Of a DNA stretch of 64,000 nt, positions 889-48,117 are shown one piece after another (positions within the stretch are counted from its first letter, which is position 1; the number at the start of each line of letters is the position of its first letter). The position numbers and the translations under genes were made by a program. The stretch is from Niebla homalea (Eukaryota; Ascomycota; Lecanoromycetes; Lecanorales; Ramalinaceae). The notes under the pieces were generated by a model that worked only from the letters and a program-made list of their open reading frames with translations, ran no database searches and was not told the origin of the DNA. The stretch spans positions 620,001 to 684,000 of the forward strand of contig JAHGAU010000019.1 in assembly GCA_019925105.1 (NCBI GenBank). Reading direction: 5' to 3'.

Positions 889-1760
889 AATAAAAATAAT
901 AGCTAAGTTCCGATCTTACTTATATCGTTATATATAAGAGGGATTATAAATATACCCTTACCGATACCGTCTTACCGATACAAGCGGTAAACTATAATAC
1001 GTAGAGTATTAAATACGACTTCTTAGTACCCCTTAACTTAATAGACCGTAATTATACCTGGCGTAATAAACCAATAGATAAAATACTCTCCTTTTAATAG
1101 CGGCTCTTTACTTTCAAAGTTCGGTGGATACGGTAATCGAGTTATTAACCTTACCTCCGGACCATAATACTCATAATAAGTAATAAAGACTTTATATTGA
1201 AGGTCAATAAGGACGTAAGCTAAACATAATAGGAAGAAAAGGATATTCTACTATATATTATAAAGTCGGTATAAAGACCTTAAAACTATATATTAAAGGG
1301 TCGGCTTAAAGACTTTACTATACTTATATACCTTATGGTCGGCATAAAGATTATACAGGGAGTATACCCTATCGTAACGATAATTATTAAGTTATTATTT
1401 AATTTATAGTATATAATAATTACGGCTTTAATTAATTAAGCTATAAAAGCACAAGTACAATATAAATAAGGGAAAAAACCAGGACGTATACTTACTTAAT
1501 AAAACCACGGAGATTACGTTTTTAAACGATTTAGCTCAAATTTAATCGCTTAAAATCCACGATTATTTCCCGGGTTACAGTCCCGTTTAATTCTCGTTAA
1601 TACTTTACCTTATTGCTTATTAACCACATATTTAGATAATGTTATTTATACGCTTAAAGTTTGCTTTTAATCACCTTTATTATTGAGTTAATTAATATCT
1701 ACAGTATTTTATAATGGATATTACGACGTAAGCGTCGCTTTTTTCTTTTTTATGGGTACT

Positions 1761-1914
1761 TATTACGTATAAGCAGTAGAATAGGCATAGCGCAAGGGTA
1801 TAGGGCTATAAATGCTTGGCGCGTACCCATATAACTAGCAATACCCTTCATAGTTGCAATCCAGGCAGTTACCACTCCACCCTCAATACCTGCACTTCGT
1901 CTTTTTCCCTGACA
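1761..1914. repeat. 3' LTR of TRIM-like copy A
   Basis: Second terminal repeat of copy A. It is preceded by a T-rich stretch (about 1736-1751) and a GACGTAAGCGTCGC block that also precedes the related LTR in the second island (about 47968-48003). Its last 60 bp keep more C and G than the 5' LTR. Confidence 0.75.
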
Positions 1915-3475
1915 AAATCCTTTTTAAGTATCCAAATAAAGTATTTGAGTATATATAAATAATATTTTTATTTATAATAGCTCTTTAAGAGAAAATATAT
2001 ATAAAATATATTATTAAAATTATAAGAAATTAACTTATTTACAATTATTAATAAATATAAAGTTTTCGTATACAAAAATTATTTTCCTTAATATTCTTAT
2101 CTTTGTTAAAACTATTAAAATAAACTTATAAAGAATATAAACCCTATAAAATTAAACTTAACTTATAATATTAAAGTAAATATAGTTTTTTTTATTTAAA
2201 TTCTATAACTTTTATAAACGGTTTATTGAGAATTTTTTATATATTATAAAGTTATTACGTTAATTAACTTAAAAAGATTTTGAATTTAAATAAAAATCTT
2301 ATTTAACGGTTTTTAATAAGTTAAAAACAACAATTGTATTAGTATTAATATTAAAATATTTTAATGAAGAAAAAAAGTGATTTTTAAACCGGATTCCTTA
2401 AATCACGTTAATATAAAAATATCCTCTTAATATAATAATAATAATATACTTTACTTTATTATATTTTATAATAAGAATTTTATATTAATATAATATAATT
2501 ATAAGATTTATAACAAGGAACTCCTAATTATTATTGACGGGCTTAAATCTTAAAAAATAAACTCTAAAAATAGAAATATTCTTATTAAAATCTTTATAAA
2601 TTATAAAAGTCTAAGATATTTTATAGAAATAAAGTAGTTAATAAGAAAATAAATATAATAAATAAACCTTTTTATTAATTATAACTCTAAGACTATTTAT
2701 ATTATCGTAAAAAAAATTAGAAAATAAACGCTTTAATAAAAATAATAAACTTAAAAATTTATATTTTTATTAATAATAATTATAAGAAGTATATATATTA
2801 AATAATATTATTATTAAAATAAAAATAATTAAAATTAATTAAGGACCCCGGAAAGTCCGAAATTAAAAAGTCAAAAGAAAACTTCCTTATAGAGATTAAA
2901 TATATAAACTTTATTAATAAAGAATATATAAGAATCCGGATTAAAATAATTAGTAATAATTATCTTAATAAATACTTTACTAAAAACGGAATCCTATGTT
3001 ATTAGAATAGAATATATATATTAATAAATATAATAATTAAAGTTCTTAAAGAGGTTTACTTCTAATTATATTCTATTTGTTTAAGAATTAAATAAATTAT
3101 AGAATTTATTTAATAATATTATTATATCTTCTAACTGCGTATCATAATTAAAAAATATCTTTATCATTATTAAATCTATAAACGGATTAAAGCCTTAAGG
3201 GATAAGAAGAATAATTTACTCTATTTATTATTAATACCAAATTAATAACAAAAAGATTTATGTATAAATTTAATTACTGGATTATAAAAATTTAAGGAAT
3301 ATAACGTTATTTTTATAATTTATTATAATTTATTTAAATATCGTTTTTATATACTTATTTTAAATAAGAATAAAAGAAAATTAATAAAATTACTTACGGA
3401 CGTTTTCCTATAAAAGGTATATTAATATTACGGGCTTTTTATTTTGATTATTTTAAATTAAGGGTGTAAATATAT
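1915..3475 (+). pseudogene. Ty3/gypsy pol remnant: RT end, RNase H, integrase core
   Basis: After copy A the RT frame resumes (IL-F-K-Y-P, about 1918-1935, then traces of the region after the YxDD box). Around 3255-3400 the plus frame reads INLITGL, KFKEYNVIFIIYYNLFKYRF and LLTDVF, which match the spacing of the gypsy integrase core (M-D-F-I-T-G-L-P ... Y-N-A-I-L-V-I-V-D-R ... E-L-A-D-L-F). Stops are frequent. The RNase H assignment of the middle is by position only. Confidence 0.65.
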
Positions 3476-3639
3476 TGTTACGTGCAAGCAGTGCAGGCAC
3501 ATACCATGATAGGCATAGCGCAAGGGTTAGGGCCATAGATGCTTGGCGCACCCATATAATTAGTAATACCGTCCATAGTTGTAATCCAGGCAGTTACCAC
3601 TTTACCCTCAATACCTATACTTCGTTTTTTTCCCTGATA
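3476..3639. repeat. 5' LTR of TRIM-like copy B
   Basis: Matches 4549-4712 at full length (164 bp each). It has a roughly 10-bp insertion relative to copy A after the GCAAGCAGTGCA start, so A and B are diverged lineages and not the products of one event. Confidence 0.75.
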
Positions 3640-4548
3640 AATGGTAGCAATAGCTGTTTTTCAATTTTACTTATATCATTATACATAAGAGGGACCATGG
3701 ATATACCCTTATTAATACTGTTTTACCGATATTAGCGGCAGACAGTAATACGTAAAGTACCTAGCTTAATAAATTACCGACTTCCAGGCTCCCTTTAAAT
3801 AAGGGACTATATACTGTACGTAATACCTATACCTGGAGTAATAACCTAGTAAATAATTCGCTCTCCTATAGTAACTCCTTACTTTCAAAGACCTATAGAC
3901 ACGGCCGTTAGCTATTAACCTACTTCCGGAATCAGTGCTTATAACGTTAGTGCTTATAACGAGCAATAAAGACTTTATATTCGAAGGTCGACAAGGACGT
4001 AAGTCAGGCATAACGGGCAGAGCAGGATACTTTAAACCACATACTACAGGGTCGGCACAAAGACCTTACTACACTACACGCCACAAGGTCGGCACAAAGA
4101 CCTCACACCCACATGCCTTACGGTCGGCATAAAGGCTATATAGGGAGTATATATTATCGTAACGGCAAGAATAAGTCATTATTTAGTCTATAATACATAA
4201 TAATTACGGCTTTAATTGATTAACTAATAAAAGCAAAAACAAAGGATATAAGCAAGGGTAATAAGGACGTATATTTACTCGGTAAAACCACGGAGATCTC
4301 GTTTTTAAACGATTTAGCTTAAATCCAATCGCTTAATTTATAACTATTTCCCGGGTTATAGTCCCATTCGGTTCTCGTTAATATTACTATTTATTTTACT
4401 TTACTTGTTAATAATTATATATTTAGACAATATTATTTATATATTTAAAACTTACTTTTAATTACCTTTATTATTAATATATATATATATATTATTTTAT
4501 AATGAATAGTTTAACGTAGGCGTTAACTTTTTCTTTTTTATAGGTACT

Positions 4549-4712
4549 TATTACGTATAAGCAGTATAAACATATATTATAATAGGCATAACGTAAGGGT
4601 TAAGGCCATAGATACTTAGCGCACCCATATAACTAGCAATACCGTCCATAGTTGCAATCCAGGCAGTTACCACTCCACCCTCAATACCTGCACTTCGTCT
4701 TTTTCCCTGATA
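4549..4712. repeat. 3' LTR of TRIM-like copy B
   Basis: Second 164-bp terminal repeat of copy B, ending in CCCTGATA directly before the TATAT target duplication. Confidence 0.75.
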
Positions 4713-5808
4713 TATATATTTACCTTATAAAAGTATCTTTATAAAAGACTAGATATTATAGCTATATATTTAACAATTTATTATCTAAAAAATAAATAGA
4801 TAAACCGAATAAACTATTTAACATATTAAGATAAAGTCTAAAGATATTATAGTAAATAATAAGATAATTAAATAGACTATATTAATATAATAGAATTTAT
4901 TGATAATAATTAAGAATTAACCTTTATAAAAATATTTTTTTTCTTTTTGAATTACGGTTATTATCCTTATATGAATTTTACTCCGGATAATATCGTTTAT
5001 ATTATAATACAAAAGCAAATTATAAGCCGTATTATTAAAAATATTATTAACTATATATAGAAAGTATTTAAGTACGAAAAGAATAATTTAAGAGCGGTAT
5101 AAATATTTATAATAACTTAAGTCAACCGTTATTAAAAGGATATTATTTATAAAATCAATAATTAAGTTTATTTATTTATTAAAAATATTAAGATTATTAA
5201 ACTATATAAAAATTTAAACTATAAAATAATTAATCCCTATAAGATTATGAATAAAAAAAGGATATTTATATAAATTTAAATTTTTTAAAAGCTCTTATTA
5301 AAAAACGTATTTTATACCGGTCTTTTAAAGATAATAATAAAAAACGTATTATTTAAATAAGAATTTATTTTAATAATTATTATTATTATCAACGATTAAA
5401 AGGATTAAACAGTAAATAATATCTTGAATTCTTAATTCTTAAACGGACGTTTATAATATAAAGTTAATTAAGCCGCATATAATTTAAATCCTAAATAATA
5501 TAATACCGATAAAAACGAATTTAAGTATATAGTTAACGTAATTATTAAATTATACCGTTATTATTTATATAAGCCGGGTCCTTATAATCGATTATAAAGG
5601 TAAAAATGACTTAAGCGTTAAATTATTAAGGGAAAAAGTATACGATCTAACTGTTTATCGGATATTACGTTAATCTTTTAATTCTTATAACCTTATGTCT
5701 TTTTTTACTCGTTACTTATAACGGTATTCTTTTACCTATATTCCTTAGCTTTTATAATATTTAACATATATTTATATATCACGGCTAATTTTTAGGAAAA
5801 AAAGGGGA
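4713..5808 (+). pseudogene. Ty3/gypsy integrase C-terminus and chromodomain remnant
   Basis: The plus frame resumes with integrase traces: a K-I-N-R-stop-T-E block standing for D-G-Q-T-E-R, then YGYYPYMNFTPDN-like residues (about 4960-5000) and LFIKNIKIIK ... INPYKIM (about 5170-5250), the family's W-L-S-T-K-N-I-K ... G-P-Y-x-I segment. A chromodomain-like stretch follows (VNNILNS ... GRL-x-YKVN, about 5415-5480) and a terminal YKPGP block near 5570-5590. Multiple stops, no function. Confidence 0.75.
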
Positions 5809-6062
5809 TAATATTATAAGTATATTAACTTACAAAGGCTATTAAGTAACATACCTGGTAGTTAAGTTATAAGTATTACGGTAATAATATATAAGCGAGA
5901 TATTCAAGTTATCTATCCCGGTTATTAATTATAAGGGGTAAGGTAACTTAACGTATATTAATAAAAGGCCTTTTTAATCAATATTTATACTTTTACTCTT
6001 TATAGTTATTCTTTCGATTAATACATACCCTTGTAATCTCATTCTAAGCACGGCCCTTATCA
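5809..6062 (+). repeat. 3' LTR of the plus-strand gypsy element
   Basis: This 254-bp stretch follows a purine tract (AGGAAAAAAAGGGG, 5794-5807) and ends CTTATCA. Its reverse complement matches 17023-17280, the LTR of the minus-strand copy of the same family; shared blocks include CCCGGTTATTAA and CACGGCCCTTAT. The LTR boundaries are inferred from this alignment and from the tract; the TG start has become TA. Confidence 0.75.
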
Positions 6063-6844
6063 ATTATAATATCTATAATAAAGAAATTTTCACGATTATC
6101 CGGTATCCTAAAAATTAACGGCTTAAATTAAAAACAATAAAGATTTCTTTTAAATTTTCAAGAATAATTAAGCTTTAAAGTACCTTATTAAGAATTAAAA
6201 GCTTATAAAACGTTAAATAAAAACCTTAAATATCTTTCTTAAATTTTTTTTCAAGGTCTACTACCGGTTAAATTAAAAGAACTAGAAAATTAATATCCTT
6301 ACTACAATATTAAACTATTAATTATAAAACGATAATAATAATAAGCTTAAAGATTAAATTTAATCAGCGATTAAGGTAATATAATAATTATTATTTATAT
6401 TGAATATTGATAAAAATTTAAAACATTGATATTATAATAAAAAGAAAGTTAATATATAATTAATATACTCATCCCTTACTTAGTTCAAAGAAAGGCTTTT
6501 ACTTAACGTATAAGAATAATAAAACAATTAAGATATAGTCTTATATAAATATCTAATTGAATATTAATAATTAAGATATAATATATTACGGAAAATTTAT
6601 ATACGTTATGAATTAAAAGAAAAGTAAGACCGGATAAAACCTTAAAAATATATAATAGATATAACTTACCGCCGGTAAATAAAAATAAACCTTTTATGTT
6701 ATTTTCATTAAAAGAATAATTATTGTTAAAGGATTTTAATTTATACTATAAAAAATAAAAAAATGTCGAAACAAGGAGTATACATTATACGGAGGTAAAA
6801 CAGTTATTTAAGGTAATAACTTAAGCTACAGACGAACCACAGTT
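6063..6844. other. RIP-degraded AT-rich DNA, unassigned
   Basis: About 780 bp of very AT-rich DNA between the gypsy LTR and the first gene island. Stops occur in all frames and I recognise no family. Base composition rises sharply at about 6780-6850, the left border of the island. Confidence 0.6.
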
Positions 6845-7141
6845 ATGACCGCGCCTAATTTCGATAGGCAAATTGAGCAACTCCTCAGTCCTTTCTCACC
6901 CAAATCTCTACCAGTGACAAAGAAGACTCTGCGAGTCAGCTTTGATCCCGCAAAGACGAAGGTTCTCTTCCTCATCTCACTTCTTTAATCACCGGCAACA
7001 TCGTCCCGGAACAGATCCATCAATACCTTCAAAGCATAATCGTCGATTTAGAATATACGAGCTTGCGAGAAGTAGAGAGAGTGGGTATCAGCACCAGGAC
7101 AGATCCCTGGCCATATGCGCTTGAGAAACGGTCCAAGCAAG
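6845..7141 (+). pseudogene. Decayed N-terminal fragment of a zinc-finger or gag-like ORF
   Basis: An ATG at 6845 opens a frame starting MTAPNFDRQIEQLL that meets a stop at about 6986. A second frame in the same region reads TGNIVPEQIHQYLQS and ends ALEKRSKQEIVGKAFVQR-stop at about 7139. A one-base shift near 6945 would join them, so this looks like one frameshifted ORF of about 98 codons. The last 80 bp are similar to 42786-42865 in the second island, where the same LEKR-x-K-x-E ... GKA-x-VQR block runs into C2H2-type zinc fingers. I do not know the protein; a retrotransposon gag or polyprotein start is one possibility. Confidence 0.45.
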
Positions 7142-7597
7142 AAATAGTTGGGAAAGCCTTTGTCCAACGATAAACGAATTCATCATGACAATGACAAGGG
7201 TTTGCCCGGGGAAGTGGTGAGCCTGTGCAGCGGGTCTCGACCGTCATCGCTTTGCCCGAACTTCCAATATCGACGTTGCTTTGGTCAGTCCAACCTCTAC
7301 ACAAGGAAAGGATGGTCGTCGGCGGAGACTGGGAGAGGGTATGAAGCCCATCGGCCACGGTCTAGAGAGGTTGGCAGCGAACATGATGGTCATCTTATGC
7401 CGAGATTGCCATGGGACTGCTGGAGATAATCTGTACATGTAATTTGACAAGCTGGTATTGTCTCTTGTCTCTTGTTTCTTATCTTTTGGGAGAATTGATT
7501 ACGAAGAATTGCCGAGGTGCCGCCGTAAGCGCAATGTACGGAATCTCAGCGTCCCTCGGTCCCTCATCTTTTTGTCTTTTTGTGGAGGCGCTGTAAT
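7142..7597. other. Intergenic DNA upstream of the SPOK-like gene
   Basis: Normal base composition. Short overlapping open frames on both strands (60-109 codons) share no family features and look like shadows. The likely promoter and 5' leader of the gene at 7755 lie here and just downstream; I see no clear TATA box. Confidence 0.4.
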
Positions 7598-7641
7598 TCC
7601 GGCATTTCCGCGGCATTTCCACGGCATTTCCGCGGCATGCC
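7598..7641. repeat. 11-bp tandem repeat in the presumed 5' leader
   Basis: GGCATTTCCGC-type units start at 7601, 7612, 7623 and (partial) 7634. They lie about 115-155 bp upstream of the chosen start codon of the SPOK-like gene, so they may be in its promoter or leader. Confidence 0.7.
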
Positions 7642-7754
7642 CGCCACCCTTTGTCCTCAACTCCTTCACCTCAGCACAACACCATATCCTCTTATCCTCT
7701 CTCCTTGACCTGGGCTCCTCTTCCAACTCTGGATTTTCTTCCGACTTACCTGCC

Positions 7755-9971
7755 ATGGATTTTGCGGCCAACAGCGATGCTGCAAAGGAAATACTGGAGA
7801 AGAAGGTGGCCGAGCTGCAAAAGGCTCTGGACGATCGGGACCGTAGACCCTCCCTCGTCGAAGTGTTCAAGTATTATGATGACACTGCTCCCAAATTGTT
7901 CGAGGTTGAACCGGAGCCCGCTCGTCGGACTACCGGATCGATCCAGGATCCAGCCAACAAGCTGCATCCCAAGGAATTGAAAGAATGGGACGATTGCCCG
8001 TCTGAGTTACGAAACATCTATGGAGAGCTTCAAGCATTGTTAGATGAGCCGGACTGTGACCCACAATTCGAAAGCTTCGAATACATGTGGGGTCTTGCGG
8101 AACATGCCAGCCCTGGTCGCATTGGGACGGAAGCAGACTTCGCAACCTTTCAAGGGCGTTTCTTCGAAATGATATTAATGGCTCTTTACAGAAGTATGGC
8201 GGCCGTCCCCAAGTTGAAGGACCACTTCAGGCTGAAAGATCGGCTCTCCATTGACAGCAGCGGGAACTCGCATCTAGCGGATCAGAGGGCAACGCGACCA
8301 GACTCGGGCAATGAGGCGCGTTCAGAGAAAGTGTGCGCGGATCGCTTTTACTACGAGGCGGAAGGCAACCAGAAGCGGCTCATTCTCACTACGGAGCTCA
8401 AACCACCACACAAGATGCCAATGTCGGTCTGGAGCCACGGCCTTGGGGAGATGGAGCTTGACCCGATCATTCACGTGTCCACATCACCGACGGATCCCCA
8501 GCTTCGAGAGCAACAGTCAGCGTTTCGGAAAGTTGCCTCGGTACTTACGCAGGAATTCGATTATATGATCAGAGGTGGCATGCTATACGGTTGTGTTGAC
8601 TCTGGAGAAGCCGCCGTCTTTCTCAAGATTACGTCTGATAACCCAGCAACTCTATATTACCACTTCTTAGGAGGAATAGAGAAGAATGCCCCAACCGAGT
8701 CTTTTGATCCTTACAGGAGTGATTTGGCAAGGCGCTTTCTCTTTACTCTTCTTGCTGCTCGGGGTGAAAGAATGGACAGGGATTGGATTGCGAACCAAGG
8801 AAAGGCATTGCCCGAATGGCGTTTTGATCCCTGGATGGACCATGGGCCATGGCCAGACCGGATGGATCATCCGGATAATATCAGGCCCTTTACGCCTTCG
8901 ATTTCGATTTCGAAAATACAAGATAAACAGCATCAAACACGCAGTCCCACCAAGGGCGGCTCAAAATCATGTAAACCTGATCAACAGAGACCCAATCCTG
9001 ACGATGAAGAGGACCCGGATGACAAACCTCCTTCCACTTTCGGACCTCCGAACCCATCAAGCCAGAATCTCCAGACAGCCAATAAGCAGCGTACGATAGG
9101 AGGAGGAGGCAATACTTCGGTGGAGGGTTCTTACTCCAAGAACAATACGCTAAATCTTGCATATTGTACCCAGGAATGCTTAAAGGGACTTCGGAATGGT
9201 ACGGCTTTGCATGAAAGCTGTCCTAATGTTGAGTTACATTGTCCCAGCACGCAGAAATCGAGATCCCATCCCTTTCCGGCTCAACAACTGCCTTCACGCG
9301 TCCAAACGCAGCTCGCCGAGAGTCTTGTCCAAGGTGTTACTGACTTAGGCCTTCAGGGCGCCCGTGGTAAGATATTCAAGATATCCCTCGTTTCACATGG
9401 TTATACCTTCATCGCTAAAGGGACTAGTCTGGCCTATAAGCCAGATCTAGAGCATGAAGCTCGAGTCTACCAGCGCCTTAAACAACTTCAAGGCGAGATC
9501 ATCCCCTTCTGGCTCGGAAGCATTAACTTAGTCCGTCCATGGATAGACTTGAACGCTTGGATCACCTACATGCTTTTACTCTCCTATGGCGGGGAGGAGA
9601 TCGGGTCCGGCGGACTGCGAGAGCGGGACAGACAGGAACAAGAGTCGATTGTCAGCCAGCTCACAAAGTGGGGTGTAAAGCACAAAGACCTGAGCGTTTA
9701 CAATCTTCTGCGGAATATGGATACTGGCCACCTGATGATTGTCGACTTTGAGCGCTCCGAGTTGGATCCTCTGCCTTCTGGATGGCCCCCGGAGGGCCCC
9801 TCGAGGGGAAAGCTGCGGGGTACCATGCCCTTGAGTGAGATGTCAGGGAACGCGTCACCATCCAGACAGCCATCACAGGAGCGATCGATGCATTACTTGC
9901 CCACCAAAGCTTCTAAAAGAAGTAAAAATCGATCCGGTCCTAAGGATGATCCGCTTCATTTCGTGCAATGA
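7755..9971 (+). CDS. SPOK-like protein: coiled coil, PD-(D/E)XK nuclease-like domain, Cys cluster, kinase-like domain
   Basis: A single 738-codon frame without introns. I chose the ATG at 7755 (context TGCCATGG, start MDFAANSD); an ATG at 7458 is in frame but adds a 99-residue leader unlike a protein. From the N-terminus: a short coiled coil (EILEKKVAELQKALDD, about 11-30); a TGSIQDPANKLHPKELKEW block (about 57-76); a nuclease-like domain with D196, E214-L-K216 (TELKPPHK), YMIRGGMLYG and FLKI ... LYYHF (about 190-305); a Pro/Asp-rich linker; a Cys cluster (C471, C475, C489, H495, C496, in YCTQECLKGL ... CPNVELHC); and a kinase-like domain with K555, E566 or E568, HKDLSVYNLL (H643, D645, N650) and DFE at 664-666. 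This order and length are those of the SPOK proteins of Podospora, where, as published, the nuclease-like domain is needed for spore killing and the kinase-like domain for resistance. Relatives occur widely in fungi, mostly of unknown role. No stop or RIP damage is visible. Whether it drives cannot be read from sequence. Confidence 0.85.
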   Translation: MDFAANSDAAKEILEKKVAELQKALDDRDRRPSLVEVFKYYDDTAPKLFEVEPEPARRTTGSIQDPANKLHPKELKEWDDCPSELRNIYGELQALLDEPDCDPQFESFEYMWGLAEHASPGRIGTEADFATFQGRFFEMILMALYRSMAAVPKLKDHFRLKDRLSIDSSGNSHLADQRATRPDSGNEARSEKVCADRFYYEAEGNQKRLILTTELKPPHKMPMSVWSHGLGEMELDPIIHVSTSPTDPQLREQQSAFRKVASVLTQEFDYMIRGGMLYGCVDSGEAAVFLKITSDNPATLYYHFLGGIEKNAPTESFDPYRSDLARRFLFTLLAARGERMDRDWIANQGKALPEWRFDPWMDHGPWPDRMDHPDNIRPFTPSISISKIQDKQHQTRSPTKGGSKSCKPDQQRPNPDDEEDPDDKPPSTFGPPNPSSQNLQTANKQRTIGGGGNTSVEGSYSKNNTLNLAYCTQECLKGLRNGTALHESCPNVELHCPSTQKSRSHPFPAQQLPSRVQTQLAESLVQGVTDLGLQGARGKIFKISLVSHGYTFIAKGTSLAYKPDLEHEARVYQRLKQLQGEIIPFWLGSINLVRPWIDLNAWITYMLLLSYGGEEIGSGGLRERDRQEQESIVSQLTKWGVKHKDLSVYNLLRNMDTGHLMIVDFERSELDPLPSGWPPEGPSRGKLRGTMPLSEMSGNASPSRQPSQERSMHYLPTKASKRSKNRSGPKDDPLHFVQ

Positions 9972-10480
9972 GGCATCAGGATCCATACGTAAGAATGGAA
10001 CACAGGAATACGACGGAATTCTGGGCAAGCGGAAGGAAGTGACAAGCCGGAGCAAGCGGCTTGATTGAATGCGCACCGAATACTGAATACCAATTTCTTA
10101 CTGCTGGGCGGCATCTGCATGCGGCTTCAGGTCATGAGCCATTGTAGCTCTCTCTGCGAGAATTGTTATCAGCAATGCGTTGGGTTAAAGAAGGCATTCT
10201 TAGTGATAGAAACCTGAAGCACAATCGCACATGCTCTACTAGGCTTACGTTGACGAATTACTTTCTTATGCAATTGATTCTTGTTTACTTGTTTCACAGT
10301 AGAATCCTACACAAGCGCTTTGAAGCGCTCAACGAAGATGCGCAAGCTACCTATGCGGAGGCTGAAAGCACTACACCGTAACAAGACAGCCGTAAAGAAG
10401 AAGAAAATTGAGGTTCATTTTAATATGATATCGAACAATATCAAGTGTTTGTTTGATAAGTGGGGAAACAATTAAAAGCA
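9972..10480. other. Intergenic region downstream of the SPOK-like gene
   Basis: About 500 bp of moderate GC. Open frames at 10163-10381 and 10281-10475 (64-72 codons) have no recognisable motif. A small palindrome AGCGCTTTGAAGCGCT lies at about 10315-10330. Probably holds the 3' end of the upstream transcript. No gene that I can support. Confidence 0.35.
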
Positions 10481-11094
10481 TCAGCAGCCATCGAGTATCC
10501 TCGCCTTTGAACAGAAATCCAATGACAGCTTTTTCAGAGCTCCGTCTACCAACTTTCTTGAGCCCAGGTAGATGCTGCGAAAACAGTCCTCGTCGCGGGC
10601 AAGGTCGCCAATCTTAAAGAGAACCTTAGAGACCAACCCCACAGAAGACAGCGACAGCTTGTCAGACTGGTACGCTATCCCAAACGTGCTTTGGCGAACC
10701 TGGACGTTGTCTTGCCGTAGGGATTCGGAACAAACCGCAGAGGAAGATCGGATGAAAAGTCTAGCTTCACTTTGTACCTGCATCCGAGCGCCGCTGGTCT
10801 GTCGTTAGTATGAGGGTGACAAAGTGTCTACCCGTACATTGCTGCTGCCGCACTGCATCACGAGGGCAAGTCGCAGCTGGTCTGGTTGCTGGCGCTGTAA
10901 AGCAAGTCCATTCCAGGCAGGCGGGCTTTCTTCTCCGAGTTAATCGATTTATTCCAGTGCCCGTCCAAACTGCCCCTCACAGCTGGGCGTCGGGGGAAGG
11001 TCCATAGAACGCCCTCTTCATTCTTCGTCGGGCCTCTTTCCTCCTGTAATACTGGGCATTCTGCTTCTGTGATTCCAATGCTATACTCTTTCAC
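10481..11094 (-). CDS. Possible two-exon hypothetical protein (weak)
   Basis: On the minus strand, 10798-10481 reads as a plausible final exon ending LGSRKLVDGALKKLSLDF ... ILDGC-stop. Directly upstream is a good fungal intron end: branch-like TACTAAC (10810-10804) followed by GACAG, with the acceptor AG at 10800-10799. A possible first exon begins at an ATG at 11094 (MKEYSIGITEAECPVLQEE) and stays open to 10858; its donor site is unclear (GTGATG or GTACGG). Another minus frame over 10800-10680 also reads protein-like (RYKVKLDFSSDLPLRFVPN), which could mean a frameshift and a decaying gene. I do not recognise the family. Confidence 0.25.
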
Positions 11095-11247
11095 TCTCTT
11101 TCTCTCACTCCAATACCGACTTCACATTGACCTGACTCTCAACATTTAACTAGATCATTACACTCAATACACTCAATCCATCCCTAACCCATCCACACTC
11201 ATGCATCCTCACGTCTGACAGCTTCTGATAGAGCTTCACCTTCAAAG

Positions 11248-12268
11248 ATGCTCCTCTTAACGAGGCGATCAGAGAGTGAGACTGACGATGCCTTCCAAGA
11301 GAGCAATTACAGTTCTGAAGACCAGGAGCAAGAGCAACCTCCCTCATCGCCCTGCACCGTACGTTTATAACGCGGCCGTGGCGCACACATTGCAATGGCC
11401 CCTCTCTGGCTTTTGATGGATAGCATCCATCGTTGTGGGCGCCACGGCATCTGTCATGGGCAGGTCATCAGTATCGGTGCGAAATAGCAGCAATATGTCT
11501 AACAGGCATGTCATTGTGCGGTGCCTGCCAAGAGAATGATGAAAGCATCAGAGTATTGACGGCTGAGCGTGAGAAGGATGTTCTGCAGCTCATGCACACG
11601 ATTGGCCATGACAATACAGCGCAGCAGCCACAGCCACGGCCACGGAAAAAGATCAGTAAGAAGGGCAACAAGGCTCCCGGATCGAGCAGGGTGTCTCTTC
11701 ATCGATGGCATTTCGGCAAGGCCAGGGAAAAGACTATCGCACCTGTCTCATCACCAGCGCCGACTGAATCTGGCGCTGGAGCACGCCGCTCCCCTCGCCT
11801 TGTTACTGACAACCTTGAAAATGACACGGGTCCGATGGAGGAGGCTACTGGCTTGGAACCAAAGCACAAGGCCCAACACCCTCCCATTGTTGGAGCCGGC
11901 CGCGCTCTTTCCTCCAAAGAGTCTGACAAGACATCCTATTCCGCGATTCAGTCTTGCGAGCCTCCTATTCCTGCCGCCATCGGACCGACTCATGTCGCTC
12001 CCACTCCTTTCTTCAGCGACGCCATTGCTATCCCTACTGCTGAACCTGGCAAGCTCGACGGTGGTCAGTTCAAACCCCGACCCAAAGCAGCATCCGCCAC
12101 GCCCTTCTCCACCGATGACGGCGCAGCTTCTTGTCCCTCTCAGACTCAAGAGCCGGACAATGGCGGACTTCTCAATTTCAAAACCCTCGCCCCGAAAGGA
12201 TCCGAGACCTCCTCGCCACCGTCGTCGCCGGCAATCGAGATACCCACTAAAGCCGCTGCTGTCACGGA

Positions 12269-12299
<31 letters not shown>

Positions 12300-12626
12300 A
12301 GAAGAAGAAGAAGAAGAAAAGGGAGGAGGAGGAGGAGAAGGTGAAGGCAGTCGAGGCCACGCCTTATGATGAGGAGTTGCAGTAGGTCCTCGCGCAGGTG
12401 GCGGCATGTCAGCGTTGGATGGAGATGTACAGTATTGGTCCCGCTGCTGTCGCGAATGATGGTGGGAGAAGGCAAGGAAGGGGAGAGATTTTGGCAGGAA
12501 TGTAAATGAGACTAAGAAGAGCCGAGGGAAGAGGAGCAAGGCTTGCGTTGGTGATGATGATGAGTCGTCCAATAATGCGCCAGAGGCGAGTGAGTGGGCA
12601 GAGGACGATGGAGGTTGTTGCTTGTG
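11248..12626 (+). pseudogene. Charged low-complexity protein gene with GAA tract, probably decayed
   Basis: A start at 11248 gives 37 codons (MLLLTRRSESETDDAFQES...) up to a consensus donor GTACGT at 11359. A CTAAC branch-like site lies at 11499 and phase-matched acceptors at 11471 and 11534 lead into a long frame rich in Pro, Ser, Lys and Glu that is open to about 12340. It then enters the GAA tract, where all three frames are open. The most protein-like continuation (EEEEKVKAVEATPYDEELQ) lies in a different frame, ends in TAG where CAG is likely (12382), and further protein-like pieces (about 12385-12500 and 12505-12626, DDDESSNN ... WAEDDGG) need more shifts. I read this as one gene of about 420 codons broken by repeat-length change and at least two further lesions. 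No family recognised; the first 300 codons may still be expressed. Confidence 0.4.
12267..12342 (+). repeat. GAA/AAG microsatellite and purine-only tract
   Basis: An almost pure (GAA)n run (about 12276-12318) followed by (GGA)n. It is coding in one of three open frames of the surrounding gene and is the likely place of a frame change. The minus strand of the tract gives poly-Ser and poly-Leu frames that I regard as shadows. Confidence 0.85.
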
Positions 12627-12639
12627 ACATGCTGTCAAC

Positions 12640-14580
12640 GGTGAGAGGGATGACTCTTGCGAAATGATGAAAATAATAATGAGGATGTTGCAGATAGGAT
12701 AGATTATGTTTGGATGATGGTTATTAAGCGTTAACGCTAAATGGTCTGACTGATGCTTAGACTTATAAATGCCTTTGAGTATTATACCTTCGGTGCCTCG
12801 TCGTTATTTCTCAGCCTGGGAGCGATCGGATACGTATTATTCTAAGCGATAAAAGATATCGTTAAGTATATAGGAAGTAAAAAATATATTTAATAACTTT
12901 AATACCTGGACGCTTCTTTAGCTGCTTATTAATCTAATTCCTTTATATTATATACCGTTAATAAAAGATCCACCCTTTATAAATTGTAAGCCATAATTTA
13001 TGGAGTATATTAATTGGATTTATACTTATACCATGAACTTAACTATATTAATTTTAATATTCTTTAACGTATAACTTATTAAAAGTATTAATAACCGTAA
13101 AACCTAACTTCATAAAATAAAATAATATTTATAATTTTCATTATTCTTTGATCCTTTTGTCGGGGAGTAAGTATTACAAGTTACCTTATAAATAATTATG
13201 CTGTTGTTATAATATTAATTTGTATTTTATATATCATTATAATTTAGTTTCCTATAGAACTTTATCCTGGAATTTTTTTGAATAAGTTTACTTTATCCGG
13301 TTTCCTTAATTACGGGGAAAAATACGTTATTAATCTGTTATTATTAAATACTATAAGAGTATTTAAAAAGTAAATCAACTAAAATTTTCATATAACCTTG
13401 AGTTTAAAGGCGTACCAATTTTTATCGTAAAATAAACGAATAGCTTTTTAAAAAATAGAGTAATAATAATTAACTTCGGTTGAACGGATAATAATAGAAG
13501 AGTAGTTATAATAAGTATAATCTAAAGATTATTTGTTTCACCGGCATTATTCTTATTTTTTAACGGACCCTTAATAAAAGAATTAATGGTATTAAAGTAA
13601 AAGAATTTAAACTAAAACTTTATAAACGATATGTATTTGAATGTATATAATTAACTTATCAAAATTAATTACTTAAAGCTTAAATAAATATATTAAGTTT
13701 TTTAAAATAAATAAGAATTTACGGAATAAAATTTATATTTCATAAAGAACAATCAATATACATAATAAAATACCCGAAATATTACAATATATCGGTTACG
13801 AAAAACCTTAATAACGTTATTATAAAGCCGGAAGTAAATGTTAAAGTCCTAAAGTTTTAAATAAATAATCAGTTAAATTAAAAAGTATATATAATAAAAA
13901 TCGAAAAAAAATGGTTTTATTAAAAAACTTAATAGAAATAATAATATTTATTTAAAATATGATCTTCCTGGCAATGGAAAATAATACATTAAGTAATTAT
14001 AAAACTTATAATAATGTATATTATTAGTATTTAATATTCCCCGAAGGAATATTCTAAGGTTAATTAAATTAAGATTGAATAATTAAAAAAGGTTTAAATT
14101 AATATTTATATATAGTTTCCGGGGTATATAAGTTTATACCGATTTTAATTTTAAAGTCGGAAGTAGATCTCCCGTTAACTAATTATACTTTAAATTAAAT
14201 AATTTTATACTTTAGATTAATTGAAAACTTATCAAAGAAAATAATCGGAAAATCAAGGTTAATTTAAACATGTAAAAGAAGTAAAACCGTTCCCGTCATT
14301 TTTTATAGAATTAAAGATAAAATAAATTATAAATAAATTATTAAAATTAATTAAATAGATGTATACAGTTAAAGAAAAAACTAAAATTCAGATAAAAAGG
14401 ATTTAATTTTTATATTAATATTGTTAAAACGGGTAAAACGCCCTAGTACCCGGTAATTATCCGCCCTAGTACCCCGTAAAAACAGAAATAAAAATAAATT
14501 CAAGATTAAATGATAAAATGCCTTCCGCAATTCTATTTTAAAACACCGGGAATGATTTATAATAACAAAAAAGATGTTAT
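12640..14580. other. Right border of island 1 and RIP-degraded DNA, unassigned
   Basis: Composition falls from normal to extremely AT-rich between about 12720 and 12850. Beyond that, stops occur in all frames. A minus-strand open stretch at 14381-14602 lacks any motif and I consider it chance. No element ends could be assigned. Confidence 0.5.
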
Positions 14581-42740: not shown

Positions 42741-42785
42741 GTCGGAACTGGTATTAGTACGAGTAAAGAGCTATGGATATAAGAG

Positions 42786-43330
42786 CTTGAGAAACGGTTC
42801 AAAAAAGAGACAGCTGGGAAGGCCCCTGTCCAACGACAAATCCATCATAACGACAAGCGTGTCTCCACCCATGATACACCAAAACCATCACCAGGATCAC
42901 TGAAGCAATGCCGAATCTGTAAGGACAAATTCCCATCCAGCAACAAGCTTCACGATCACCTCAAAATCTCTCATCACTTCCGTGATGTTACCACCACGAA
43001 GAACAACTCTTCACAACTACCAGCCACGAAGAGCTACTCTTCAAGACCACCACCCGCTCGGGGAGCAACTCTCCGACCAAACCCCAGCCCAATCACCCGC
43101 ACAAGCCTTGAAGCAATGCAACGTCTGTCAAGCACGTTTTGCGTCTGGGAACCAGCTGTATAATCATCTACGGACCCGTCATTTCAGCAAGACCAAACAA
43201 GAGCAGATACTCCAGTGATCTCTCAACCAAAACCACCCTTACCAGCTTTGATAGCGCTGCCGCAGCTGTTAAAGCGGACTTCAGCTTCCAACAATGAGCT
43301 TCACAGCCAACCTGCGCACCTACCACGAAT
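42786..43330 (+). pseudogene. C2H2-type zinc-finger ORF remnant, frameshifted
   Basis: A frame from about 42786 reads LEKRFKKETAGKAPVQRQ, then a finger CRICKDKFPSSNKLHDHLK ... H (about 42912-42980). A second finger, CNVCQARFASGNQLYNHLR ... H, lies in another frame that is open from 42982 to 43215. A third, worn one (CRSC ... ADFSF, NNELHS) is seen at about 43258-43310 with further frame breaks. A stop (TAA) upstream at about 42783 lies where island 1 has TAT-GCG, so RIP touched the 5' edge. Such fingers occur in fungal retrotransposon polyproteins and in host proteins; I cannot decide which. Confidence 0.5.
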
Positions 43331-43870
43331 TTGAGTGACTGCAGCGGCCTCACCCCTGGAGATCCACGTCCACAGTACACTTACCTTGCTCGGCCGTCAC
43401 CCCGCAGCCTTCGTTTTTTTTTTTTTAATTCTCGCCTAGCTTACGGCACTCGACTCGGCAATACCTCGGAGATATCGTTTTTGGGGCAATTCAGAGCTCG
43501 AAAAACCCACGACTATCTCCCGGGTGCGATTGCGATAATTGCCCGGGTCGATTTTTTTTCGAATTTTCACCATGCGCTTCTCAGCAACAACCACCTTTAC
43601 ACCATCACCCCTTCACATGCTCGGCGCTGAGATGGGCCCATATGAGGCTCCGGAACCCCCTGGTATACACGCTTTTCGTGGTTGTTATTGGTTATGGGGT
43701 ATGAGCCTTTTTTCATAAGTGGCAAATGGTTAAGGGCTGATCCTTACCGCGGAACGGGTTCCGTATTGCTTGGCGCCCGCACTCACTGTACATAGCTCAC
43801 CACCATGCACCCAGATAGATCATCATTCATATACATTATCCATACTTTTACCAGGGCTCTCACACGGCCG
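43331..43870. mobile_element. Un-RIPped debris of a TRIM-family element
   Basis: 43465-43530 (CTCGGCAATACCTCGGAGATATC, CACGACTATCTCCCGGGT) matches the internal block of copies A and B and 47700-47780. GCTTGGCGCCCGCACTCAC at 43769-43787 and GATCATCATTCATA at 43819-43832 match LTR cores, the latter the complement of the LTR at 55689. The 99-codon frame 43331-43630 is a chance reading of this repeat. Confidence 0.5.
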
Positions 43871-44107
43871 GATTTAAACCTGTATCGTAAAAAAACCTAT
43901 AGGTGGCTGCTTAGTATATATGTACTGTATTTTGACTGTATTTCAAGCTTATTTAATATACTTTTGAGTAAAATACACTGTCAATAAAATGCACGCAGCC
44001 TGTTCTCAATTCGGCTACCCCCTCTAAGGAAGCTACTCTGCCAGGCATCTCCTGGTACTTAAGCGCCTGGTGCTGCTGCTCTTCAGCACTTCATCCGCGC
44101 TCAGTCG
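43871..44107. other. Intergenic DNA, 3' flank of the nuclease-like gene
   Basis: No gene. Likely contains the 3' untranslated region of the minus-strand gene that ends at 44108. Confidence 0.35.
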
Positions 44108-46658
44108 TTAATTTCCAGGCGTACCGGGCGTACTACTGCTCTTTACCTTGGCCCACTCCAAGACTTCCTCGTCAAACCACTGCTTATACTCCGTTGTTCC
44201 CCAATCCAGAATCGCATCTATCTTGTACGCGATCTCCCATAGCCCCTTCTCATCCCGCGTGTGCCCCATGGGCATCGGCCCCATCATTAACTGTGTCCAC
44301 GTTCCCACGGTCAGCTTTCGCTCTTCAATCGCTGTTCCCAAACGCAGCCATCGGTCCCCTGAGTTGCCAGAGAATCCATACACAAGCCACCCATCAGGGC
44401 AAGAAAAGGAAAGGACTTACCAAGGCATCCGCCCCAATGGGAAACGTGATGAAGAAATGCCACTCATGGCCATTGATAGTGATGCCCGGCATCGGCATAT
44501 GCGTCCACCTGTGCATTCGACGCTTCTTGAACCCAGCCGCCTGCCAGATGGCCAGCTGCACCTCGGGCGCACGATCCGTGTGCTGTTTCTTGGCTTCGAT
44601 GTCCAGGAATATTGGCACGATATCTTGGTAGGATAGCGCTTGGTTGAGGGACTTGGCGTTGTCGGGGAGGTTCTTGAAGGCGTTATGGATGGTGTCTTCG
44701 TCTGCCCAGGAGAGGTCAAGGCCGACGGCGTAGTCGATCATCCGGGACGAGGTGGGCTGCCTGTTCGTGTTGGCGGTATTTGCGGAGCCGCCTTCGGAGA
44801 CTTGGGAGGCACTTTCGACGTCTTCGAGGGGTTGGCCGCCGAAGCGGGTGGGGCGGATCTCGACGGGTTGGATGGAGCAGGATTCGCTGAAATGGTGGTT
44901 AGTGTGCTTGGGGAGGGTTGTGATGCAAGATGGGGGGTTGGTGGGTGCGTACAGGTTCAGAAGCATGGTATTTTTGTCGCTGCGGAGTTGCCATATACTG
45001 TTGAGGAAGGGGTGGATGGTCGTCATGCCCCATTGTCGCTCATGGGCATGTTTGCGGTGGTTCCAGGCAGCGGTGTATAAGGCATGGTCGATCGCTTTCC
45101 TTACGGAGGTGGCGTCGCTGGCATCGATGGCGAAAGTGTCTTGGAAGGATTGATCGTACAGTTCGCCGCGACGCTTGTTTGGGGTGTCGAAAAGGGTCTC
45201 ATAATGGCTCTAGATCTCATGCGAACAGCGATCAGAAATCTTTCTCACGACAACGCGGAGGGGGCATGGGGTGACGTGTGACTATACCTGAAGAGTGCGA
45301 GATATGTACCCTGGTTTGCCCACAAGTCTGTTGCGGAGCGCCGTCACAGACGCTGGCAGTTTGCCGAGTTTGTTGATGGCTGCGTTGAGATCGAGCTCTA
45401 TGACGCTAGGACTGCAGCTTGCAAGGTCGTTCATAGAGAGAGCTGCCTCAGGCTTCTTCTTCTCCATCGTTCTCCCGCCTTTGACAGGAGAGCAAGAGCC
45501 AGACTGTCTGGCGGCAGTCCCTGACCGTATTGATAGCTTGGATTTGCCTCCCCCGCGCTTGGTCGGGGAGCCGAAGGGTGTGTAAATCTCATCTGCATTG
45601 GGCAAGTCGGCGATACTTGAGGGTTGATGTGAAGGCGGTCGCATTGTAAGATCAGGACGTAGCTCAATGTCGCTTGAAGTGGGGTGAATGCCGTACATAA
45701 GAGATCTCTCGTCTCTCGCGTCCGGTGAAGCAGGAGCAGGCTGACCTGGTCGATGGCTGATGTAGCCACCTCGGCCGCGAAAGGTGGGAGTTGTGGGAGG
45801 ATAGCATGGTGCGGAGCTTCTCGCACGTTGTACCATCTCTCTCTCTCGCTCCATCTCTTGCTGTTCGCGTACTTTCTGTGAGGGTATCGGGGTGCGGCGC
45901 GTGTTCCTACGACCATATATCTCCTCTGGCTCTTGCGAATCCACGTTTCTGTCTGCCATGTTGATGTTGCTTCTCCTTCTCTGGGTAGATGTATGTTGGT
46001 ACTGAGCAGATGCTTCTTCCTGTTTCTGTGCTTCGCTTGGAGGCTTAACGCTTTGCTGGAGAGGATCTGCAGAGGTGGAGGCGAGCGAGGAGAGCGAGGA
46101 GAGCGAGTGAAGCGGTGAGATGTTGATGGTTTGACTTCTGAGACCAGATCTTCTTTGTGGGAGGCTGAAGGCCCTGGGTCTACGTTTGAGAATTGATGGT
46201 GGCTGAGCTTGAAGTGAAGTGTCACGATTCAGTCTCTTCCTCTTCGATTTGGGGAACTCCTTCGGGTGAAGGAGAGGTTGTCGAATACGTGGTTGAGGTG
46301 TCTTTGCTTCCTCTTCGCATGTTATCTGACGCGTACTTGTACTTGCTCTGGCTTTAGCTGACGTGATAACGAGGGGGACGAGGGGTTCAGTGCTCGGCTT
46401 GCTCTTTCTCAAGCTTGCTGCACAAGCACGCTTTGACGATCCTTCTCCTGCCTTTGCTTTTTCCTCTTCGTCGAGATCACGCTTCGAGCTGAACTTCCGA
46501 GAGTTTGTTGAGGCCAGGGTGAGAGGCTGCCGCGAGGAAAGCTTCGGCTGTGGTGACTTGCTTTTGCTCGAATGCTGTTGTCGTTGCTGAGCTGAAGCGA
46601 CTTCCTCTTTCCAGGATGTAATACGAAAGATGGGATCGGTATGTATATGGAATGACAT
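44108..46658 (-). CDS. Fungal PD-(D/E)XK nuclease-like domain protein, three exons
   Basis: Exon 1, 46658-45288 (457 codons), is a disordered Ser/Arg/Pro-rich N-terminus with basic patches (KSKRKRLNR, LKRRPR). Intron 1, 45287-45210, has donor GTATAGT and acceptor CTAG. Exon 2, 45209-44421 (263 codons), continues SHYETLFDTPNKRRGELYD and holds the domain: MIDYAVGLDLSWADE, then IFLDIEAKKQ with E-A-K as the E-x-K of the fold, QLAIWQAAGF and WHFFITFPIGAD. Intron 2 has donor GTAAGT (44420-44415) and acceptor CAG (44361-44359). Exon 3 ends LEWAKVKSSSTPGTPGN. This fits the fungal PD-(D/E)XK nuclease-like family (Pfam PDDEXK_12, from memory). Biochemical role unknown. Oddity: the frame after the acceptor (GDRWLRLGTAIEE) is off by one base in a G run (44359-44356), so either an indel has damaged the gene or splicing differs. 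Confidence 0.7.
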
Positions 46659-47136
46659 GACAGGACCTGGGGGATTGTTGATTTGTGAAGCAAAGTGAAG
46701 ATGAGACGTGAATGTTTACGCGACGCTCGGACGCTTTCAGGTCGACGTTGCCCGAGGTTATCCCGCCAAGCCCCTCGATATCTGAGGTATCAAGGGTATT
46801 TCCAGGCTTGGCCGGCCTTGGCGTCTTGATAACTTCAAGCAAGAGGTAACGCGCCATGCCCGCATGCCCCCACCGCAACAGACCCAAAAACACCGTGATG
46901 TGATGGAGAACCCGACAAAGCCCCTTACCTGCCACCCTCAACTGCACCATCAACTGCTGTCAGCCTAGGTGCAGGCATGGTGGTAGGTGGTATCTCATGA
47001 CACTGTAGATATCATCACCTGGCCGTACATTCCAGACCACCTGTGTATTTCATGCAGACTGGACCTGCCTTCCTTCATATACTTAGATAGTCCACTCAAT
47101 CAAGGCATATATATGCACCCACGTCCAGTCTCACAA
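46659..47136. other. Intergenic DNA upstream of the nuclease-like gene
   Basis: Normal composition; presumed promoter of the minus-strand gene. Short frames on both strands without features. TTACCTGCC and similar words occur but I see no defined element. Confidence 0.4.
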
Positions 47137-47232
47137 CTGCACCCTCAACTGCACCCTCAACTGCACCCTCAACTGCACCCTCAACTGCACCCTCAACTGG
47201 CACCCTTACTTGCACCCTTACTTGCACCCTTA
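47137..47232. repeat. 12-bp minisatellite CTGCACCCTCAA
   Basis: Five near-perfect units followed by three variant units (TTGCACCCTTAC). Its complement, TTGAGGGTGCAG, differs by one base from the GTGAGGGTGCAG unit of the array at 58011-58098. Confidence 0.9.
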
Positions 47233-47395
47233 GCAAGGCCTTCACTCAGTGTTAGGCTGGTCCGCGGGCTCACAGCTGGCGGGACATATCAAAGGGGTTT
47301 TGGGAAGACGTGGAGTGTACAGGGGTATCTGATAGATTCGATAGTATAATTCTTAAGGAATATAAAAAGGATTAGCCATTAAACTCTACTATATT

Positions 47396-48117
47396 GTCAC
47401 GGACATGCATAAAGCATATGAAGTGAGTGGGTGTAATATGTATCAGAAATATGGGTATACGCGCCAAGCACCGGAACAAGGTAAGCCCGCTCCGTGCCAA
47501 GGGATCCTCCCCTGGTCCATACCGTGACAACATGTGTTGTCACGGATACGAGCCAGGCAAGCCATGCGCGGCCATGCACCAACCTTGAGACAGTGGTAAT
47601 ACCGACGAGGACGTCGCTTTTTCCTGTTCTTTGTGGGCATGTTGTCCCGGATACGAGCCAGGCAAGCCATGCGCGGCCATGCACCAGCCTTGAGACACGA
47701 CTCGGGAATACCTCGGAGATCACGTTTTTGAGCGATTCAGCTCAATCGCAATCCTCAAATCCACGACTATTTCCCGGGTAGATCACGATAATTGCTCGGC
47801 TTGTACCCTTTTTCGGTTTTCGCTTTTTCAACATGCGCATTGCCCACGGCTTTATTTCTCAACAACCACACATCCAATCAACATCATTCATGCACTCGGA
47901 GCTTCCCTTCGATCACCTCTACCACCGAGTATGTCAAAATCCATGGTGTTTCGTGTGGGTATACAGCGACGTAGACGTCGCTTTTTTCTCTTTTTTGTGG
48001 GCATGTTGTCACGGTATGGATTGTTACGGTATGGACCATGGGAGGATTCCTTGGCACGGAGCGGGCTTACCTTCTTCCGTATGCTTGGCGCGTACACTTA
48101 TATTGCGCACCTTCATA
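47396..48117. mobile_element. Un-RIPped TRIM-family debris with head-to-head LTR ends
   Basis: 47452-47532 is the reverse complement of 48004-48100 (shared words CCTTGGCACGGAGCGGGC and GCTTGGCGCGTA); the right copy has a 15-bp internal duplication. At 47522-47545 two LTR starts face each other (CCGTGACAACA-TG-TGTTGTCACGG). A 56-bp repeat, TGTTGTCACGGATACGAGCC...CTTGAGACA, occurs at 47535-47590 and 47640-47696, separated by the same GACGTCGC...TGTGGGCA block that precedes the LTR at 48004. 47700-47780 is the conserved internal block of copies A and B. Short frames here (60-108 codons) are repeat readings. Confidence 0.6.

Follow-up and report, generated by a model that had tools for sequence, protein, structure and literature searches.

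An intact SPOK-family gene, probably a single-gene toxin-antidote, within RIP-ruined DNA of Niebla homalea

How does a long gene stay intact in DNA ruined by repeat-induced point mutation (RIP), and could it be a spore killer? We address these questions for a stretch of 64,000 nucleotides of the Niebla homalea genome (GenBank assembly GCA_019925105.1, contig JAHGAU010000019.1, here C19, positions 620,001 to 684,000), hereafter the window, in which positions are counted from the first letter. We identified a SPOK-family gene at 7755-9971 on the plus strand, a single uninterrupted frame of 738 codons and a stop, just as the original prediction had described it, and consider it probable that this gene is an intact single-gene toxin-antidote. 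The stop-free stretch of the frame extends upstream to 7443, giving 842 codons in total. The longest frame in 500 first-order Markov simulations of the surrounding island was at most 296 codons, and an origin by chance was rejected. The ATG at 7755 is supported as the start because an intact second copy, on contig C4, opens with the same MDxAAN.

The window protein has the domain order of SPOK1-4 of Podospora, namely a coiled coil, domain 1, a PD-(D/E)XK nuclease, a linker, a Cys/His cluster and a kinase (PMC4022471, PMC6660238, PMC9972908). This likeness, already proposed for the locus, is borne out by the agreement of the SPOK3 landmarks, relatives of the same layout and a structural model built on a 109-row alignment, and every residue named earlier is in place (D196, E214, K216, C471, C475, C489, H495, H505, K555, H643-K-D645, N650 and D664-F-E). 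In SPOK3, as described in PMC6660238, D219...K240 corresponds to D196...E214-x-K216 of the window protein and the QxxxY motif at 294-298 to Q266-x3-Y270. The SPOK3 cluster reads C-x3-C-x13-C-x5-H-x7-H from C493, to which the window protein is identical except for a last step of x9, and C493 lies 174 residues from D667, as C471 does from D645. Within the family, C-x3-C-x13-C-x5-H was found in 122 of 125 proteins and a last step of 7, 8 or 9 residues in 117 of the 125, and of the 120 proteins with both the first Cys and the catalytic Asp found, 65 have a distance of 173 residues between them and 45 have one of 174. Spok1 has 734 residues and the window protein 738. In addition, the Podospora genes and the window gene are alike in having a single uninterrupted coding frame, transposons close by and more than one copy per genome. 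They differ in that Spok1 and Spok2 are 87% identical, compared with 54% between the two intact copies here, and in that SPOK1-4 are known drivers, whereas the window gene is a candidate. The FuSpoks of Fusarium (PMC12693581) are alike in family, in occurring as several copies per genome within repeat-rich or accessory DNA and in keeping the catalytic residues; they differ in their reported link to accessory chromosomes or Starships, of which there is no such evidence for the window gene.

Because of this architecture, the window gene should act as the Podospora SPOKs do. By analogy with the work on SPOK3 and SPOK1, the N-terminal coiled coil would bring two protein chains together, DNA would be damaged by the PD-(D/E)XK-like domain in cells that are given the protein while lacking the gene, and in gene-carrying cells the toxin would be neutralised by the Cys cluster with the kinase-like domain. 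In SPOK3, K240 of the nuclease is required for killing and not for resistance, and the Cys cluster and D667 are required for resistance (PMC6660238). SPOK toxicity has been reported to target DNA in E. coli and yeast (PMC9972908). Judging from the residues kept, it is plausible that the window gene functions both as killer and as antidote.

The structural prediction is an AlphaFold model on alignment A3, which holds 109 of the 125 proteins and excludes fragments, over-long proteins and P0006; an earlier model on five rows (predicted local distance difference test, pLDDT, 41.1) was set aside. For this model, Foldseek and the VIA comparison returned a kinase fold, and the full A3 profile matched kinases in the best 60 of 120 matches in the PDB. 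Among the matches listed for the whole model, kinases appeared throughout, which says nothing on the nuclease fold. The central domain is supported as having a PD-(D/E)XK-like topology in the model, since a strand begins at D196, the next strand ends at E214-x-K216 and the following helix carries the QxxxY motif (Q266-E-F-D-Y270), 50 residues past K216 as compared with 54 in SPOK3. The Y of this motif is kept in the clade of the window protein and replaced by V in 96 of 108 relatives. A profile of the nuclease part gave no nuclease match against the PDB and Pfam. Thus, the kinase fold that had been expected was recovered, and the expected nuclease fold is supported by predicted topology and motif positions, without an independent database match. 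The predicted N-terminal helix reaches a pLDDT of 92 over residues 11-20 and, read by eye, shows the 4-3-4 hydrophobic spacing of L14, V18, L21 and L25, in keeping with the coiled coil proposed earlier. This coiled-coil-like part is longer and Q/E-rich in the C4 copy and shorter in the window protein. In the linker, pLDDT falls below 50 in residues 363-367, 369-373 and 384-459.

A single-sequence search with the window protein found four relatives, and an alignment search including them returned the same four. A search from the Cys/kinase part of the relative P0003 gave 364 matches, P0003 counted, and our statements on the family rest on the best 120 of these. The relatives among the matches listed come from Penicillium, Aspergillus, Paecilomyces, Acidomyces and Fusarium or are metagenome proteins, and most are 600-850 residues long. 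Identity to the window protein is 25-29% for the 108 relatives aligned with it, except for the metagenome protein P0002 at 49%, and those of Penicillium, Aspergillus and others that are labelled PF27653 have the same domain order and motifs as the window protein. In a tree built from 26 of the 125 proteins plus the open stretch of one broken copy (27 rows), the window and C4 copies are sisters (91/76, not starred) and are joined by P0002 (100/100). The branch that separates this clade from all other rows has a length of about 1.8 (1.41 and 0.39 on the two sides of the midpoint root); long branches meet at its base, as the program warned, and its place is unsure. One relative, P0005, is labelled Lipomyces kononenkoae (Saccharomycotina), where contamination or a wrong label is possible. 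Spok-like genes are discussed for Pezizomycotina in PMC4022471. Among the literature matches listed, Lipomyces and Spok were both named only in a fission-yeast genome paper.

The surroundings of the gene are RIP-ruined, as had been noted. The gene lies in an island of about 6.8-12.7 kilobases (kb) with a guanine plus cytosine (GC) content of 51%, surrounded by RIPed DNA at about 20% GC. The gene itself has a GC fraction of 0.514, TpA/ApT of 0.56 and (CpA+TpG)/(ApC+GpT) of 1.37, compared with 0.195-0.228, 1.23-1.31 and 0.25-0.48, respectively, in three flank stretches, where both indices lie within the range that we take RIP to produce. DNA was AT-rich throughout the stretch of the contig that was read (600-704 kb) except for two islands, and GC in 500-base steps was 12-42% outside the window. 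Nested transposons had also been described nearby, and the left flank is indeed made of dispersed repeats, one inside another: copies elsewhere in the genome join bases 1-461 of the query to 1712-3067, and bases 470-1712 form a separate family. In the right flank, a many-copy repeat is confined to about 16.1-16.9 kb. DNA methyltransferase matches at two places in the genome (C1 and C17) fit a RIP-capable fungus. The gene probably survives in this RIP desert because it and its nearest copy are too diverged (aligned pieces have 67-73% DNA identity) for it to count as a duplicate and because selection purges damaged versions.

The gene had been taken for a lone copy, and this is contradicted by the genome. 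We found the second intact copy at C4:511.6-513.8 kb, of 790 codons, within a RIP-free island of its own that AT-rich DNA borders on both sides. In addition, there are at least four broken relatives, namely one at C4:754.9 kb (30% identical, one stop), one at C29:13 kb in two pieces of different frames, and two with stops at C4:1281 kb and C4:1528 kb; a weak family match lies at C4:764 kb. Five of the six family loci outside the window (511, 755, 764, 1281 and 1528 kb, of which all except that at 511 kb are broken) are thus on C4 and the sixth on C29.

The two intact copies also share an upstream block, which starts at the RIP edge of both islands and lies 553-890 bases before the ATG in C4, at nearly the same distance as in the window. 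It is probably a promoter or 5' leader. The likeness of the islands ends about 155 bases past the stop; beyond this point they match only in short fragments, each some 40 bases long, within low-complexity sequence. Most simply, selection would retain promoter and gene while the surroundings decay; a possible alternative is a mobile unit whose left end is fixed. Elsewhere in the genome, a search with the block found just a 118-base piece, at the left edge of the second island of the window, and a more sensitive comparison added a match of 126 bases (70%) close to C4:622.4 kb and one of 36 bases in C22, both of which belong to copies of the repeat that opens this second island.

The gene adds to an already known family, and what is less expected is its deep separate clade and the split of constraint between its halves. 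Between the window and C4 copies, the nonsynonymous to synonymous rate ratio (dN/dS, NG86) is 0.21 (0.14-0.32) in the Cys/kinase part, the presumed antidote half, which is clearly under purifying selection. The nuclease part gives 0.85 (0.58-1.19), within which the columns conserved in relatives (from an alignment of 111 of the 125 proteins, lengths 600-850) give 0.47 (0.27-0.91) and the remaining columns 1.17 (0.76-1.86). On a pairwise alignment, the Cys/kinase and nuclease parts gave 0.21 and 0.75 by NG86, and 0.30-0.33 and 0.97-1.02 by YN00 and maximum likelihood (ML). The whole-gene value is 0.51-0.60, compared with 0.66-0.98 reported for Podospora SPOK pairs (PMC6660238). Synonymous divergence (dS, NG86) was 0.59-0.82 in four parts of the family alignment and 0.63-1.07 in the parts of the pairwise alignment, while that of the C-terminal tail was 1.14 and unstable by ML. 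Gene conversion as the source of the alike kinase halves was rejected, because kinase dS is not below nuclease dS by NG86. At the protein level, identity between the two copies falls from 76% in the kinase part to 46% in the nuclease part, with a nuclease to kinase log-distance ratio of 2.84 as against medians of 1.43 and 1.44 among relatives. Of 4825 pairs with matched kinase identity, 0.39% have a ratio at least as high, as do 2.3% of 5772 pairs (of 5778 relative pairs, which are not independent); pairs with P0002 have ratios of 2.15-2.19, which 3.1-3.6% of matched pairs attain. The two copies agree at every predicted catalytic position and in the runs ADRFY, ELKPPHK and LTQEFDYMIRGG. The view of the gene as maintained thus holds for its Cys/kinase half, with the nuclease half near 1. 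A nuclease half that changes fast with its catalytic core kept fits either relaxed or diversified killing.

Several observations weigh against an intact SPOK-family toxin-antidote. Unlike in Podospora SPOK1-4, the residue before the Asp of the PD motif is A195 and not P, and the D-to-E spacing is 18, compared with 19 in 93 of the 106 proteins with an ExK motif. The register of D196 depends on the alignment, since it stands opposite H in 97 of 108 relatives in the large alignment and in the PD column in the trimmed one; the latter is favoured by the spacing and by the common string [P/A/S]-D-[R/Q]-[F/Y]. The model around D196 has a pLDDT of just 68. The window protein alone (P0001) had no match in a Pfam library searched without PF27653, and Podospora SPOKs were absent among the matches listed in the family searches, so that kinship to SPOK1-4 rests on the landmarks. 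In a yeast assay of Fusarium homologues, two of six were reported as toxic in the form assayed and four had no effect (PMC12693581). Finally, the nuclease part as a whole is indistinguishable from neutral, and killing may be lost or relaxed.

The last point leads to an alternative in which the gene survives for its kinase half, as protection against the C4 copy or the copies of other strains, with a relaxed and perhaps dead killer half. The split in dN/dS and the divergence ratio both agree with this, a natural Spok2 allele that kept resistance with impaired killing is described in PMC6660238, and a stop-free nuclease is no proof of function because a stop there would cost the downstream kinase too. 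However, the catalytic positions and all three shared runs are identical in both copies and the family-conserved nuclease columns are constrained, and we think such an antidote-only survivor unlikely. Our own further proposal is held tentatively: the window copy, the C4 copy and P0002 may possibly form a deep, separate clade in which the killer half has diversified as fast as neutral sequence or faster while its active site stayed fixed, and the antidote half has remained constant. If true, this genome would hold two single-gene drivers with split killing specificities and one antidote chemistry, long kept in RIP deserts. How the specificity of SPOK killing separates from that of resistance is described as unresolved in PMC6660238.

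The constrained kinase half, the long separate clade and the conserved upstream block would also suit a host-useful or fixed family member that does not drive, for example one serving self/non-self recognition, and clade I homologues, usually single-copy, have been proposed to be without drive (PMC6660238). Two diverged intact copies with at least four broken relatives nevertheless resemble the birth and death of a selfish family, and the transposon neighbourhood is that described for Spok-like genes of Podospora (PMC4022471), and we think such a member without drive very doubtful. About as improbable, and slightly more so, is a passenger of a Starship or other mobile element that arrived by horizontal transfer. 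Starships are elements of Pezizomycotina (PMC12134995) that carry Spoks in Podospora and Fusarium (PMC12693581, PMC12941216), and transposon-like repeats do lie in the flanks. The 34 DUF3435 matches of the genome are what would fit Pezizomycotina, but no DUF3435 captain match lies on C19 or C4, where a RIPed remnant could escape detection. The likeness of the islands is limited to the 5' side and the gene, and therefore no shared two-ended element is seen. Of the relatives found, the nearest comes from this genome itself, and the suggestion that the gene was moved horizontally or by a transposon found no evidence. An intact SPOK-family toxin-antidote thus remains our preferred account of the window gene.

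Table 1. Positions, within the window, of the SPOK-family gene, its protein domains and the DNA around it.
Feature	Position	Strand	Basis
RIPed dispersed repeats, left flank	3001..6067		Second repeat family at about 3470-4712 inserted in the first
RIP-free island holding the SPOK gene	6801..12750		GC and RIP indices
Conserved upstream block, 554-899 bases before the ATG	6856..7201	+	73% identical to the C4 block
SPOK-family coding sequence, 738 residues	7755..9971	+	One uninterrupted frame
Predicted N-terminal long helix, residues 5-29, coiled-coil-like	7767..7841	+	AlphaFold model, sequence
Domain 1, about residues 34-160, mostly helical, role not assigned, likewise in SPOK3	7854..8234	+	Model; layout from PMC6660238
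PD-(D/E)XK-like nuclease domain, about residues 161-360	8235..8834	+	Motifs, model
Linker, about residues 361-465, mostly disordered	8835..9149	+	AlphaFold pLDDT
Cys/His cluster C471-x3-C475-x13-C489-x5-H495-x9-H505	9165..9269	+	Motif search
Kinase-like domain, about residues 508-680: K555, E568, H643-K-D645, N650, D664-F-E	9276..9794	+	Motifs, model, fold search

We also made observations outside the gene. The rest of its island contains frames at 11433-12638 with low-complexity tails, which had no Pfam match above the cut-off. The sequence at about 11233-11611 resembles C4:741.7 kb and C33:49.2 kb (69-71%), and a segment of some 60 bases at 11159-11226 occurs again at eight other places, at 83-92%. 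The second RIP-free island, at 42750-48100, has many-copy repeats at both ends, and the piece of about 118 bases that its left edge has in common with the SPOK upstream block is 73% identical. It includes a minus-strand frame at 44397-45026 that matches the PD-(D/E)XK nuclease family PF20516 (E 5e-19). No transfer RNA genes or Rfam matches were found within the window. In the coding part for the coiled coil, a weak tandem repeat (a 6-mer in 3.3 copies) is present in the C4 copy and none in the window. Elsewhere in the genome, an HMG box at C8:1732540-1732823, split over two frames, perhaps by an intron, might be a MAT1-2 gene. A genome search for a mating-type alpha box gave no match, and control searches were equally silent, so that this absence is uninformative.

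In conclusion, our analysis adds two intact, well-diverged genes to the SPOK family, with a measured contrast between their killer and antidote halves. A diverged intact pair in one genome suits tests of cross-protection better than near-identical copies do. The locus is also a clear case of single genes surviving inside RIP-ruined repeats, with one and the same upstream block marking the start of the intact stretch at both loci.
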